DNA of 60,688 bases from Methanobrevibacter sp. (GTDB lineage: Archaea; Methanobacteriota; Methanobacteria; Methanobacteriales; Methanobacteriaceae). The DNA lies in the NCBI RefSeq assembly GCF_030539555.1, contig NZ_JAUNXX010000003.1, positions 1 through 60,688 on the forward strand. The letters run 5' to 3'. The notes beneath the pieces were generated by a model. It made no database searches and was not told where the DNA came from. It saw only the letters and a program-made list of their open reading frames with translations. The position numbers were made by a program, and so were the translations under genes. Positions 49,815 through 55,595 of the stretch are shown here, one piece after another. How positions within the stretch are numbered: position 1 is the first letter of the stretch; each line of letters opens with the position of its first letter.

Positions 49815-50684
49815 ATGAAAGATGAAGATGTTGAACGACCCCCTGCAATGAAAATTCGGGAAGGAATCCAAGATGCAATGACATATTCCCTGCCCGATAA
49901 AAAGTTCAGTGAAAAAAGCGTTGATTTAGTTGAAATAGATATTGAACTGGACAATTTAGGTTGGAATTTTCACAATTATAGGATTTTAAATTTAACTGAC
50001 ATCCATTTAGGCCAATGGATTAATCCTCAATATTTGGACGACTTGATAGGTTATGTAAACACGTTGAATATTGATTTAATCACATTAACCGGAGATTATT
50101 TTTCATATATTATTGATGGTTATGAAGATGCTTTAAAAAATTTTTTTAAAAAATTAAAAGCCCGTGACGGTAAATTTGGAGTTTTGGGAAATCATGACCA
50201 TTGGATGAATGCTAAAATGATAAGAGACATATTTAAAGAATCGGATGTTATTGATTTAAGCAATGATGTGAGAACAATCATAAAGGATGAAGATTGCTTA
50301 AATATCGCTGGTGTTGACAGTTGTACCGTTTGTGCAGATAATTTAGATGAAGTACTTCGCAAATTAAAAGATAATGCTCCAACAATATTGCTTGCACACG
50401 AACCTGATTTTGCAAAAGAATCATCAAAAACCAATAGAATTGACTTGCAGATATCAGGACATTCCCATGGAGGGCAATTTATCATTCCTAAATTTGAAAC
50501 TACTCCATTTAGAGGGCCGAATTCAACTAGATATCCTGTTGGACTTTATAAAGTTGGAAATATGATTCAATACACAAGCAAAGGTCTTGGAACAAATTCA
50601 TTTAGAATAAGAATTAACTGCAAACCGGAAATTACAATAATTACTCTAAAAACTAAGAACAGACAAAAAATAATGATAGAATGA
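49815..50684 (+). CDS. Calcineurin-like metallophosphoesterase
   Basis: A 289-residue enzyme with metal-binding motifs in order: LTDIHLGQ (D62, H64), LTGDYF, GVLGNHDHW, and HEPDF followed by SGHSHGGQF. The spacing matches the YkuE/LpxH-like branch, known to act on phosphodiesters or UDP-lipids in other organisms. No SD precedes the ATG; TTAAAATATAAATA is about 29 bases upstream, so leaderless. Its stop overlaps the next gene as ATGA, so the pair is coupled. Confidence 0.9.
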   Translation: MKDEDVERPPAMKIREGIQDAMTYSLPDKKFSEKSVDLVEIDIELDNLGWNFHNYRILNLTDIHLGQWINPQYLDDLIGYVNTLNIDLITLTGDYFSYIIDGYEDALKNFFKKLKARDGKFGVLGNHDHWMNAKMIRDIFKESDVIDLSNDVRTIIKDEDCLNIAGVDSCTVCADNLDEVLRKLKDNAPTILLAHEPDFAKESSKTNRIDLQISGHSHGGQFIIPKFETTPFRGPNSTRYPVGLYKVGNMIQYTSKGLGTNSFRIRINCKPEITIITLKTKNRQKIMIE

Positions 50685-52807
50685 TTAAAAATAAATTCAT
50701 TTCATATTCAAAAACATTAATAACCTCCATATTACTACTAGTATCCAATCTAATAGTTATATATGGCGTGGATTATATCAGCACTGACTTTAATGTTGGT
50801 GCGTGGTATAATGCCATAATTATTGTAATTGCAGTGGCTATTGCAAATTCATTATTGTGGCCCATTTTTCAAAGATTTCTAATGAAATTTATCATATTTA
50901 CATTTGGAATTGGGGCAATTCTTATAAACTCTTTAATATTTTATATCGCTTCTTATTTTATTCCAGGAGTTTATGTTGGAGCATATGGAGCATTTCAGGT
51001 TCCCATTGTAATGGCAATAGCTACAACATTCATAACCAACATCACAAACACAAATTACTTCGACAGATACATCAAAAATATCTTAAAACATTCCCAAAAA
51101 AGAAAATTAGAATATAAAAAGAGATATCCTGGAGTAATCATGCTTGAAATCGATGGTTTATCAATTGATACATTAAAAAAAGCTATTGATAATGATTTAA
51201 TGCCGAATTTAAAAGAATGGTTAGATAAAAAAACACATACGCTAAAAGAATGGGAAACAGATTTATCTTCTCAAACTGGAGCAAGCCAAGCAGGAATTTT
51301 ACATGGAAATAATGAAAATATTGTTGCATACAGATGGGTGGAAAAAGAAAATGACAACCAGATAATAGTTTCTGGAAAATTAAGTGATTCACCGAAAATT
51401 GAGAAAAGAATAAGTAACGGAAACGGATTACTTGTTGATGGGATAAGCATAGGAAATATGTTTTCTGGAGACAGCGAAATTTCCACATTAACATCTTCAA
51501 AACTAGAAGGTCTAACCAGATTATACAATAAAACACTCCATACCGTATTTTTAGATGCCTATAACTTCCAAAGGATATTTATTCTGTTTTTGTGGGACAT
51601 CCTTTTGGAATTAAAATCCCAATTAATTCATTGCTTAAAAAATATCCAACCCCGTCTTAGAAGAACCATAGTCTATGCTGCTGTAAGGGCAGGGGCGAAT
51701 GTAGTTTTAAGAGAGGCTACAACCGAGATTTTAACCGGAGAAATATTGACCGGAGACATCGACACTGCATATGCAACATTTATGGGGTATGATGAAATAG
51801 CTCACCATTCAGGAGTAGAGGATAACGACGTCTGGAATGCTTTAAAACAAATTGATGTTCAATTTCAGAGATTATCAACGGCCATAGAAATGAGTGAAAG
51901 AGATTATGAAATCGTTATTCTATCTGACCACGGACAAAGTAAAGGTGCAACATTCAAACAGAGATATGGTATTACCTTAGATGATTATGTTAGAAGACTG
52001 CTTCCAGATGATTTGAAAGTATTTAAAGAAGAATATAATATAGACCACTTTAGAGATGCAGTTATTCCAGAAAATAAGCAAATAAAAAACATTAAAGAAA
52101 AAGTTGGAAATATACGTGACATTTTATTTGATGAAAAGGAGTCCGTTCAAAATGATAAAGAAGAAATAGAAAATAGAAAACCTCCAATAATATTTGAAAA
52201 TGAACAGTATCTCAATTTGCGAAAAAAATATTCTAACAGTCTTGAGTATATCAGAAGACATGAAAGTGTGGAGCACAATACCAAAAAATCAAAAGATTCC
52301 GAATTGATTGTTTTGGGATCTGGAAATTTAGGACTAATTTATTTAACCCAATGGAAACAGCGATTAAATTATGAAGAAATTGTAATGTTGTTTCCTGATT
52401 TGATTCCAGGTCTTGTCAAACATTCAGGAATTGGCTTTACACTTGTCAATTCCATCAATAATGGTGCAATGGTTATTGGGCAAAATGGAATAAACTACAT
52501 CGACAAGGGGCAAATTGTTGGCGAAGATCCTCTTGAAGGATTTGGAAAAAATGCTTCAAAACACCTCATTAGACAAAATACATTTGAGAATATGCCTGAC
52601 ATACTGGTCAATAGCTTTTATGACTCTAAAAACGATGAAGTTTGCGCATTTGAAGAATTAATAGGAAGTCATGGAGGACTTGGAGGAAGTCAAACAAAAC
52701 CATTCATCATATATCCTTCAGATTGGAAAAATCCGGGTGATTTGGTAGGTGCTGAATCCATCTATAAATTCTTAAAAAAAGAAATAGAGAATTTAAAAAA
52801 CATTTAA
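50681..52807 (+). CDS. Membrane-anchored alkaline phosphatase-superfamily protein with holin-like N-terminus
   Basis: A 708-residue protein. Four N-terminal helices (about 5-125; phage holin family 4/DUF360-like, with ATTFITNITNTNYFDRYI) lead into an alkaline phosphatase-like phosphodiesterase domain. Metal and nucleophile positions are visible: IMLEIDGLS, DLSSQTGASQAGI with a Thr/Ser nucleophile, YDEIAHHSG, ILSDHGQSKG and IGSHGGLGG near the end. Probably hydrolyses a phosphodiester or phosphonate at the membrane surface. It is coupled to the metallophosphoesterase and converges with the sirtuin gene (stop codons share TTAA). Confidence 0.85.
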   Translation: MIKNKFISYSKTLITSILLLVSNLIVIYGVDYISTDFNVGAWYNAIIIVIAVAIANSLLWPIFQRFLMKFIIFTFGIGAILINSLIFYIASYFIPGVYVGAYGAFQVPIVMAIATTFITNITNTNYFDRYIKNILKHSQKRKLEYKKRYPGVIMLEIDGLSIDTLKKAIDNDLMPNLKEWLDKKTHTLKEWETDLSSQTGASQAGILHGNNENIVAYRWVEKENDNQIIVSGKLSDSPKIEKRISNGNGLLVDGISIGNMFSGDSEISTLTSSKLEGLTRLYNKTLHTVFLDAYNFQRIFILFLWDILLELKSQLIHCLKNIQPRLRRTIVYAAVRAGANVVLREATTEILTGEILTGDIDTAYATFMGYDEIAHHSGVEDNDVWNALKQIDVQFQRLSTAIEMSERDYEIVILSDHGQSKGATFKQRYGITLDDYVRRLLPDDLKVFKEEYNIDHFRDAVIPENKQIKNIKEKVGNIRDILFDEKESVQNDKEEIENRKPPIIFENEQYLNLRKKYSNSLEYIRRHESVEHNTKKSKDSELIVLGSGNLGLIYLTQWKQRLNYEEIVMLFPDLIPGLVKHSGIGFTLVNSINNGAMVIGQNGINYIDKGQIVGEDPLEGFGKNASKHLIRQNTFENMPDILVNSFYDSKNDEVCAFEELIGSHGGLGGSQTKPFIIYPSDWKNPGDLVGAESIYKFLKKEIENLKNI

Positions 52808-53655
52808 ATTCTACTATTCCAATAAGCTAATATTTCAGAAATATCCTCATCAAAACTTATTGTTTTATCTTTATTTTGAGGTATTGCCTGTGGATAATCC
52901 CTATTTAATCTAATTAATGTTGTATTCGGATTATCATAAGTCATTTGCTCAAAGGGATACCTTATAATTACTGGTGTGTTAAAACCAACTCCCAACTCTA
53001 AAAATACCACGTTTTTATCTTCATCAATACCTTCTAAAAATTCCTGATATCTTTTGCTCATTTCATGCCATTTTTCATCCTCAACAAAGAAATTATCCTT
53101 TCTTACATTTATTTCCATATGTCCTCCGCAAACTGGGCATACCGGAACCAATTCCGTTGGAATCTTACAATCATCAGTTTTTTCAATTGCCTCATATACC
53201 AAATCCCTATTCGAATATAACCTATCATGACATGCTTTTTCACACTGCATCAAACCGTAATCTCCTTGGGTAGCAAAAATTCTTTCATCCTCAAAATCAT
53301 TTATCCAAAATTGATGCTCCACATTTGTTGTCAATACAAAATACTCCTTATCCTTCACCAATTCAAGTAATTGAGCATATAATTCGGTTTTACCAACAGA
53401 ATATCTGTTGACATAAACATGACGTGCCCAATGCGCCCATTTTTCCTCAGAGGTTTCATACGGATAAAATGTTGCAGAATACATGTCTTTAACACCATAT
53501 TTTTCAATGAAGTCCTGAAAATTATCATCGAAGCGTTTGCCCGAATATTCCAATCCTGCAGCAGCAGAAAATCCTGCTCCAGCACCTATAAGAATATAAT
53601 CCGCATCGTTAATAGCTTTCATGGCAGCATCCAATCTTTGAACAAACCTATCCAT
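52804..53655 (-). CDS. Macrodomain-associated sirtuin (SirTM class)
   Basis: A 283-residue Sir2-fold protein. LIGAGAGFSAAAGLEYSG (24-39) binds NAD. The active-site segment reads TTNVEHQFWIND then FATQGDYGLMQC: Gln occupies the place of the usual catalytic His (classically LHG). A zinc ribbon follows (QCEKAC, CPVCGG). The His-to-Gln change is typical of class M sirtuins, some of which ADP-ribosylate proteins instead of deacetylating them. The ATG at 53655 overlaps the macrodomain stop (TGATG); the GGTGAT SD is just upstream. Confidence 0.87.
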   Translation of the reverse strand: MDRFVQRLDAAMKAINDADYILIGAGAGFSAAAGLEYSGKRFDDNFQDFIEKYGVKDMYSATFYPYETSEEKWAHWARHVYVNRYSVGKTELYAQLLELVKDKEYFVLTTNVEHQFWINDFEDERIFATQGDYGLMQCEKACHDRLYSNRDLVYEAIEKTDDCKIPTELVPVCPVCGGHMEINVRKDNFFVEDEKWHEMSKRYQEFLEGIDEDKNVVFLELGVGFNTPVIIRYPFEQMTYDNPNTTLIRLNRDYPQAIPQNKDKTISFDEDISEILAYWNSRI

Positions 53656-54440
53656 CAATCATCACCCCATAATAATTTTTTATAAATCAAGTAATCCTCA
53701 TCAGTAAAAACATTGAAAATCACATGTTTCAAGCTACATTCATTTGAACTTAAATATTCTTCAACAGTTTTTATAGCTATTTTTGCGGCTAACTCCTGTG
53801 GAAAATTAAAAACACCAGTTGAAATGCAACAAAATGCCAAAGACTCAAGTTTATTAGTCTCAGCAATTTCCAGACAAGAGGTATAGCAACTGGCCAATTC
53901 TTCGCATTCCTTTTTGGAAGGTTTCAAACCCTGAGGAATAGCCGGACCTACTGTATGGATAACATGTTTAGAAGGCAAATTATAGGCGCCCGTGATTTTT
54001 GCTTTCCCGACTTCTTCATCTTCATCCTGGCTTTGCATAATGGAATTACATTCTTCCCTTAGCTGAATGCCCGCAGCTGAGTGAATCACATTGTCTATGC
54101 AATTATGCATAGGAACAAAACAGCCAAGCAGTTTAGAATTTGCGGCATTGACAATCCCATCTACTTTTAATGTGGTTATATCACCTTTCCAAAGTGCAAT
54201 TTTACCTTTAACTTCTTTAATATCAATTGGAGAAGTTAAAGTTTTATTTAAGATTTCACTAGTCAGATAATCATCCTGAACTTTTAAAAACTCACCAGAT
54301 ACGGAAGAAGGCAATCTAATATTCATCAATGATCTAAGTAAATTCTTTTTTGATTGAACATCATTTGGAATTTCAATTATCTCGTCTCGTTCATCTATCA
54401 AGTACCCAATTAAAAAATCCAATTGTTCATCAGCATTCAT
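53655..54440 (-). CDS. Zinc-dependent macrodomain ADP-ribosyl hydrolase
   Basis: A 261-residue protein. A helical N-terminal lead ([19 protein letters not shown]) precedes a macrodomain from about 80: [20 protein letters not shown], then [29 protein letters not shown] and [12 protein letters not shown]. The C, H and C in GCFVPMHNC match the zinc ligands of sirtuin-linked macrodomains, which remove ADP-ribose added by SirTM. GGAGGGATAAA precedes the ATG. First gene of the macro-sirtuin unit, divergent from hxlR. Confidence 0.87.
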
Positions 54441-54498: not shown

Positions 54499-54533
54499 GT
54501 AACTAAAAAGCAACCATGTTACCCTGAAGTAAC
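54499..54533. promoter_or_regulatory. Cluster of GTAAC-type half-sites between macrodomain and hxlR genes
   Basis: GTAAC (54499-54503), GCAAC (54510-54514), GTTAC (54518-54522) and GTAAC (54529-54533) lie within 35 bases. GTTAC and the last GTAAC form an inverted repeat over six bases. They are placed just upstream of the hxlR TATA box (about 54541-54549), a suitable operator for the HxlR regulator or for shared control. Confidence 0.5.
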
Positions 54534-54571: not shown

Positions 54572-54955
54572 ATGAACACAGAAAAGATTGTTTGTCCTGT
54601 TGATAAAACCCTGAATCTAATTAATAAAAAATGGAGCATTCAGATTATCCGAGACATGTTTTTTGGTAAAAAACATTTTAAAGAATTTAAAGAAGATAAA
54701 CCAAAATTAAGCAATAAAGTATTATCAAATTGTCTAAAAGAGTTAGAAGAAAACAGATTAATTCAAAAAAAGGTTTTAAATACTACTCCCATAACAACTG
54801 AATATTACCTAACCGAATACGGCAAATCAATGAACAGAATTGTTTTTGAACTTGCCATGTTTACATTGCATGATGAAAATGACAATAGCTATTCGGATGA
54901 AACCCGTGAAGAGTTGAAAAATACATTCAGAAAAACTTTAAAAATTGATGATTGA
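54572..54955 (+). CDS. HxlR-family transcriptional regulator
   Basis: A 127-residue winged-helix protein. CPVDKTLNLINKKWSIQIIR and FKEFKEDKPKLSNKVLSNCL are the HxlR signature, with Cys8 close to the start of the wing-helix (a possible redox sensor, as in some members). TTEYYLTEYGKSM is the wing end. Leaderless: TATA AGATAAATAAC about 27 bases upstream, no SD. Followed by cbiE in the same transcript (one-base gap). It may control the divergent macro-sirtuin pair or itself. Confidence 0.9.
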   Translation: MNTEKIVCPVDKTLNLINKKWSIQIIRDMFFGKKHFKEFKEDKPKLSNKVLSNCLKELEENRLIQKKVLNTTPITTEYYLTEYGKSMNRIVFELAMFTLHDENDNSYSDETREELKNTFRKTLKIDD

Positions 54956-54956
54956 A

Positions 54957-55595
54957 ATGGCTGGAAAAATATTTATTATTGGAATTGGACCTGGTGCAAG
55001 TGAATATTTAACTAAAAAAGCAATTGACACTGTCAAATCAAGTGATTACACTGTTGGAAGCACAAGAGCGATTGAATTGTTTGATGATGTCAACAATAAA
55101 ATTGCATTTAATGTTAAAGAGCTATTGGATAAGCTCAAGGAAGGTGTTCAATTAGCTTGTGAAGGAAATACAGTTTCAATATTGTCAACAGGAGATCCTG
55201 GTTTTTCAGGCGTTTTGAATACTGTTTTGAGAATATCTGATGAAAAAGGATTTGATAAAGAAAATATTGAAGTAATCCCCGGAATCAGTTCCCTCCAGCT
55301 TGCTGCTGCAAAATGCCACATACAGTGGGACAATGCCAATGTGATGACTTTCCATGGGCGAGAAAACATAGAAGACATCTTACCAGTAATCAACAACGGA
55401 AAAACAACAATTGCACTCCCATCAAGAAAAGTGAAAGATATGGCCCAATTTTTACTTGACAATGGTGTTGAAGAAGACAGGAAAGTCATAGTCTGTGAAC
55501 GATTAAGTTATCCGGATGAAAAAATTGTCGAGTCAACATTGAAAAATATTGCAAATAGCGAATTTACGTATATGTGCATTATGGTCATATACTAA
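54957..55595 (+). CDS. cbiE: Cobalt-precorrin-7 C5-methyltransferase
   Basis: A 212-residue SAM-dependent tetrapyrrole methylase. FIIGIGPGASEYLT at the N-terminus, VSILSTGDPGFSGV, VIPGISSLQLAAAK and VICERLSYPDE are CbiE motifs. It methylates C5 in anaerobic cobamide synthesis, needed by methyltransferases of the methanogen. The ATG at 54957 follows GATGAT at four-base spacing; earlier in-frame ATG at 54948 is less well placed. No other cob/cbi gene is adjacent. Confidence 0.9.
   Translation: MAGKIFIIGIGPGASEYLTKKAIDTVKSSDYTVGSTRAIELFDDVNNKIAFNVKELLDKLKEGVQLACEGNTVSILSTGDPGFSGVLNTVLRISDEKGFDKENIEVIPGISSLQLAAAKCHIQWDNANVMTFHGRENIEDILPVINNGKTTIALPSRKVKDMAQFLLDNGVEEDRKVIVCERLSYPDEKIVESTLKNIANSEFTYMCIMVIY

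Follow-up and report, generated by a model that had tools for sequence, protein, structure and literature searches.

A class M sirtuin and zinc-macrodomain gene pair of Methanobrevibacter in a probable HxlR redox regulon with PNPOx and ACGX cassettes

Which protein would be ADP-ribosylated by a class M sirtuin in an archaeon without the one target known for this enzyme family? The question is raised by two overlapping genes in a stretch of 60,688 nucleotides from the rumen methanogen Methanobrevibacter sp. (contig NZ_JAUNXX010000003.1; this whole stretch is referred to as the window), which encode a class M sirtuin (SirTM) and a zinc-binding macrodomain (Zn-macrodomain or Zn-Macro). SirTM and the extended operon in which it occurs with GcvH-L, LplA2, OYE, and LLM were defined by Rack et al. 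2015. GcvH-L is the sole known target of SirTM, and those of other SirTM/Zn-Macro systems have been elusive (Ariza et al. 2024, PMC11490716). The pair is read here, with reasonable confidence, as the writer and eraser of ADP-ribosylation within an HxlR redox regulon that includes a PNPOx-family flavoprotein and the ACGX peptide system, and that acts on a target other than GcvH-L.

The Zn-macrodomain of 261 residues is encoded at positions 53655..54440 of the reverse strand, followed on the same strand by the SirTM of 283 residues (52804..53655, with its ATG at 53655). The macrodomain stop codon TGA (53657-53655) and the sirtuin ATG (53655-53653) have one base in common in a TGATG overlap (53653..53657, reverse strand). 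A preliminary description of this DNA had called the pair fused in one unit. The overlap was correctly noted there; the proteins are not fused, since they are encoded by two separate overlapping open reading frames.

The sirtuin was matched to SpySirTM (5A3A) with an E value of 2e-56 using phmmer. As the preliminary description had proposed, Gln130 (codon at 53266..53268, reverse strand) stands at the position of the catalytic His; it corresponds to Gln137 of SpySirTM. Both sequence marks of a class M sirtuin are found: the replacement of His by Gln together with the equivalents of Asn118 and Arg192 (Asn111 and Arg185 in the window), and a linked macrodomain. The zinc site is formed by C138, C142, C173, and C176. 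In an alignment of 77 SirTM sequences the Gln is present in 73, the Arg in 73, and the four zinc cysteines in all 77. The closest solved structure for the macrodomain is MorMacro from Methanobrevibacter oralis (8RSI, E = 1.2e-114). The macrodomain scores 353.4 bits against NCBIfam NF003163, the model for protein-ADP-ribose hydrolase (curated cut-off of 272), and also matches PF01661. Its zinc motif, likewise anticipated earlier, is C107-x4-H112-x-C114 (loop codons at 54099..54122, reverse strand) and is followed by D116-x3-H120. The C-H-C loop and the Asp of the Dx3H motif are invariant across the 72 aligned macrodomains. The similarities of the two proteins to 8RSI and 5A3A are far above chance, and by sequence the pair is an orthologue of the minimal SirTM/Zn-Macro operon of M. 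oralis, a kind of operon already published.

From these conserved catalytic residues and the characterized relatives, the SirTM is predicted to consume NAD+ in placing ADP-ribose on its target, and the Zn-macrodomain is predicted to take the ADP-ribose off. Asn118, Gln137, and Arg192 were shown to matter in SpySirTM, and SirTM was found to be without deacylase activity (PMC4518038). MorMacro, solved as PDB 8RSI, 8RSJ, and 8RSK, comes from the minimal M. oralis operon and strips ADP-ribose from Glu/Asp of PARP1 E988Q in vitro but not from SpyGcvH-L; Zn-Macros are the sole hydrolases known to cleave Cys-ADP-ribose (Ariza et al. 2024, PMC11490716). The alternative of a deacylase sirtuin with a macrodomain that hydrolyzes O-acetyl-ADP-ribose draws on the term "deacetylase" in database names and on a weak NCBIfam match to deacylase models. 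It is highly unlikely, given that Gln in place of His is the hallmark of SirTM, for which deacylase activity was not found in the work cited above, and that the zinc macrodomain is co-conserved.

One candidate for the target is a lipoylated protein like GcvH-L, the case known from S. aureus and S. pyogenes: the enzyme families are the same, and the SirTM and macrodomain are homologous to those of the extended operons. Neither gcvH nor lplA adjoins the pair in the window, in agreement with the preliminary description, and the genome search for GcvH-L proposed there was carried out with 139 Methanobacteriaceae genomes. No free-standing GcvH (PF01597) was found in these genomes; there were weak matches only and no short GcvH. 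All of the weak matches examined were rejected as GcvH, being the biotinyl end of the PycB subunit of pyruvate carboxylase (subunit B, approximately 575 residues). The single strong LplA-family gene (PF03099) of the window's genome encodes the biotin ligase BirA, which leaves that genome without LplA. Arg175 and Arg176, a positively charged patch that has been linked to GcvH-L docking in SauMacro, are replaced by Pro169 and Gly171 in the window macrodomain. Together with the inactivity of MorMacro on SpyGcvH-L, these results make a GcvH-L-like target exceedingly improbable. They favor the earlier suggestion that the target differs; it is probably a protein other than lipoylated GcvH-L, also because the pair appears to be one of the redox cassettes of a small regulon with a common operator dyad.

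PycB was also considered as a surrogate carrier, with an Old Yellow Enzyme gene following its gene, and was rejected as not specific, because the same pairing is present in relatives without SirTM (G057, G068, G078, and G099). The PycB gene is followed by the Old Yellow Enzyme gene throughout the window's genus, whether SirTM is present or absent (for example, locus L001).

The proposed regulator is encoded divergently from the pair at 54572..54955 of the forward strand, and 131 bp separate the HxlR and macrodomain genes. The protein matches PF01638 with 77.6 bits (cut-off of 20.8). Its nearest NCBIfam model is RrpB (NF047364), for which the score of 74.4 bits is below the cut-off of 175. The Cys near its start reported in the preliminary description is Cys8 (codon at 54593-54595). 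An N-terminal Cys is common to most HxlR proteins of this analysis, and a CP[VI] motif is found in every pair-adjacent HxlR among those listed. The window HxlR resembles the thiol-redox regulators of the HxlR/YodB/HypR type in its fold, N-terminal Cys, divergent arrangement, and dyad operator. It differs from them in scoring below the RrpB/RrpA cut-offs, and its redox response, raised as a possibility in the preliminary description, is putative: Cys8 probably senses thiol oxidation or electrophiles.

The gap between the two genes contains a dyad, GTTAC-N6-GTAAC, which was refined to GTWACY-N4-RGTWAC (GTWACYNNNNRGTWAC). The candidate HxlR operator GTTACCCTGAAGTAAC at 54518..54533 is the sole exact GTWACYNNNNRGTWAC in the window, and a second, imperfect copy with one mismatch, GTAACTAAAAAGCAAC, is located at 54499..54514. 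These tandem dyads are situated between the divergent promoters, with which they probably overlap, and it is through the dyads that the HxlR protein would control the pair, as judged from the sequence. Among 38 HxlR/macrodomain promoters GTWACYNNNNRGTWAC occurs exactly in 22 and with one mismatch in 15, and it is exact in 9 of 10 HxlR/PNPOx promoters. The corresponding frequencies in shuffled promoters are 0% for exact sites and 0.4% for one mismatch.

Genome-wide, exact dyads are found mainly at three places: the pair, the gene for a PNPOx-family flavoprotein, and the ACGX system, which comprises the radical S-adenosylmethionine (SAM) protein AcgM (TIGR04340) and the ACGX-repeat peptide (TIGR04341), a cysteine-repeat peptide. 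Two refined-pattern sites only, at the pair and at ACGX, are present in G036, and each of the five in G009 is at the pair, a PNPOx gene, or ACGX. Double dyad sites are located upstream of PNPOx genes in G042 and G048. Upstream of ACGX loci GTWACN6GTWAC is exact in 17 of the 25 scored, or 17 of the 18 with 520 bp of upstream sequence, and loci L171-L175 also carry it exactly. Four exact GTWACYNNNNRGTWAC copies are present in the window's genome. Its three exact GTTACN6GTAAC sites are at the pair, upstream of the AcgM gene (contig C41), and inside a gene (C7); the last was dismissed as a chance occurrence. No recognized partner gene was found for the dyad sites on C63 and C140 of this genome.

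The HxlR genes themselves bear on the same point. Two strong ones are present in the window's genome, at the pair and at ACGX, with a third, weak match. The sole full-length HxlR gene of G109 sits at ACGX, and the pair promoter still has the dyad. In G036 the pair is without its own HxlR gene and the dyad is kept; the HxlR genes of G036 are the one at ACGX and one more. HxlR control of the pair in trans would be the simplest reading of both genomes.

The ACGX system thus has the operator and an HxlR gene in common with the pair. Its cassette in relatives consists of a divergent HxlR gene, an ACGSD-repeat peptide, AcgM, and alcohol-dehydrogenase-like and PNPOx-like genes. AcgM of the window's genome scores 554 bits against TIGR04340 (cut-off of 400). 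With a presence threshold of E <= 1e-60, AcgM was found in 33 of the family genomes, 30 of which also encode SirTM; within the window's genus, SirTM accompanies AcgM in 18 of 18 genomes (Fisher 4e-4, uncorrected for phylogeny). At the ACGX locus of the window's genome (L213:3391-8411), the HxlR protein is without an N-terminal Cys, and two NAD(P)H-dependent oxidoreductase-like genes come after AcgM. This locus (C41) and the pair (C82) are on separate contigs.

Several observations weigh against the reading of the pair in a regulon with ACGX and with a target there. In the window's genome a seryl-tRNA synthetase gene splits the rearranged ACGX locus, and the peptide is degenerate. The pair is present without a local HxlR gene in three relatives, AcgM is missing from 45 of 75 SirTM genomes, and the ACGX loci L191 and L192 on viral-labeled contigs have no pair. 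The co-occurrence test carries the phylogenetic caveat given above. Some exact dyads of other genomes are elsewhere or intragenic, and a reversed control pattern is about equally frequent in several genomes; because of this, the argument for the regulon rests on the position of the sites and not on their counts. The shared dyad may also merely reflect paralogous HxlR proteins. Alternatively, the pair could be an ordinary lone module of SirTM and Zn-macrodomain that acts on an unrelated target and has only a generic HxlR operator in common with ACGX and PNPOx genes, owing to paralogous HxlR genes. The ACGX cassettes do have their own HxlR gene, several genomes contain 3-10 HxlR genes, and the SirTM genomes without ACGX fit such a module. 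It is nevertheless considered rather unlikely, since ACGX and the pair occur in the same operon on two bacterial plasmids, G109 has no second full-length HxlR gene, the exact sites of G036 and G009 are confined to pair, PNPOx, and ACGX loci, and the two systems co-occur in all 18 AcgM genomes of the genus.

The two plasmids, from the gut bacteria Roseburia sp. 831b and Subdoligranulum variabile, are the sole two bacterial plasmids with AcgM. On each of them HxlR, the ACGX peptide, AcgM, a nitroreductase, a ferredoxin (Fe-S protein), SirTM, and the Zn-macrodomain are encoded in one locus, with the order of SirTM and Zn-Macro opposite in the two. In a maximum-likelihood tree of 54 SirTM sequences, the window sequence is inside the Methanobrevibacter clade, and the two ACGX-linked bacterial sequences group with Treponema, apart from that clade. 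The ACGX link is therefore found on both sides of the tree, as an operon in the bacteria and as a shared operator in the archaea.

The window locus is like the extended operon of S. aureus and S. pyogenes (GcvH-L, LplA2, Zn-Macro, SirTM, OYE, and LLM) in its SirTM, Zn-Macro, and linkage to flavin oxidoreductases, and differs in lacking GcvH-L, LplA, and the docking arginines and in having an HxlR gene instead. The layout of the bacterial ACGX operons resembles that of the extended operon: a small thiol carrier, a carrier-modifying enzyme, oxidoreductases, SirTM, and Zn-Macro, with the carrier and its modifying enzyme replaced by the ACGX peptide and AcgM. Because of this analogy the ACGX peptide is a candidate target. 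As raw or AcgM-modified peptide it might serve as a cysteine-repeat carrier in the role of GcvH-L, with SirTM mono-ADP-ribosylating Asp/Glu or Cys and the Zn-macrodomain reversing this, so that a thiol redox carrier would be toggled under HxlR control. Of the ACG repeats counted, 90% have D/E two residues on. This specific proposal is speculative and on balance improbable, because of the many SirTM genomes without AcgM, which also mean that ACGX is not an obligatory target, and because of the degenerate peptide here. In the broader reading of the pair as part of the HxlR redox regulon, the target is more likely a regulon member, for example the ACGX peptide or a linked oxidoreductase, or else a protein not yet recognized that is modified under the same stress. 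Within the literature library searched there was no relevant paper on ACGX, none that ties it to sirtuins, and no description of the modification made by the ACGX system.

Of the 139 Methanobacteriaceae genomes, 75 encode SirTM; they belong to 4 of the 17 genera. Most relatives have an HxlR gene next to the pair. The HxlR, macrodomain, and SirTM genes of most members of the window's genus lie between a phosphodiesterase/holin-like gene (50681-52807 in the window) and cbiE. Where the module is absent or elsewhere, these two genes abut directly if both are in view, and the trio is therefore a discrete cassette. Such an empty site in relatives, and the phage-like genes that adjoin a divergent SirTM (L049), would suit a role in phage defense or as a toxin-antitoxin system, acting by NAD+ depletion or by poisoning of a host target. 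This possibility is very unlikely: a PADLOC-DB search for known anti-phage defense systems matched 0 families, the gene neighbors are redox genes next to a conserved HxlR operator, and the locus is stable in most of the genus. SirTM searches of phage, plasmid, and viral contigs gave scattered bacterial relatives only.

The cobalt-precorrin methyltransferase gene cbiE (54948..55595, forward strand; NF004459, 352.5 bits) overlaps the end of the HxlR gene and is a genus-specific neighbor outside the module. It was rejected as a functional partner of HxlR and is regarded as a neighbor by insertion, since it abuts the phosphodiesterase/holin-like gene where the module is absent, and other genera have their HxlR gene at a different place. 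In other contexts the trio accompanies a gene for a PNPOx-family flavoprotein (PF01243) of approximately 134 residues, and the lone pairs of Enterococcus casseliflavus and Treponema saccharophilum adjoin PNPOx-family genes.

Other SirTM loci show further variation. Tandem SirTM paralogues of genus g9 (L053, L054, L055, and L065) form a separate four-member clade. Asn for the catalytic Gln in four aligned sequences and Thr for the Arg in four are apparently from these paralogues, which are possibly inactive or repurposed. A nicotinamide phosphoribosyltransferase gene (PF18127/PF04095) is downstream of SirTM in g9 (L053, L055, L070, and L071), and a nicotinate phosphoribosyltransferase gene comes after tandem sirtuins in Mesobacillus (L189); these neighbors are likely a link to NAD+ salvage. 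Several loci of genus g12 (L058-L067) have the pair and then a glutathione-peroxidase-family gene (PF00255) and a flavodoxin-like gene. The divergent SirTM of G047 (L049:2678-7494) is without a macrodomain, overlaps a TMEM175-family channel gene, and is surrounded by several HxlR, PNPOx, and flavodoxin genes and a phage-portal-like gene.

The minimal operon of M. oralis (Ariza et al. 2024) shares with the window an orthologous macrodomain, the two-gene SirTM operon, the zinc loop, and the host genus; the HxlR regulator, the operator, and the link to ACGX and PNPOx are not described there. New here, and absent from the preliminary description, are the dyad operator, the recurrence of its site at PNPOx and ACGX loci, and the operons of bacteria in which ACGX is combined with the pair. 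A small candidate target, the ACGX peptide made with AcgM, is singled out by the operator common to both systems and by these operons. The same links would place the ACGX radical SAM system in a first physiological setting, that of HxlR-controlled redox stress and NAD+-dependent ADP-ribosylation.

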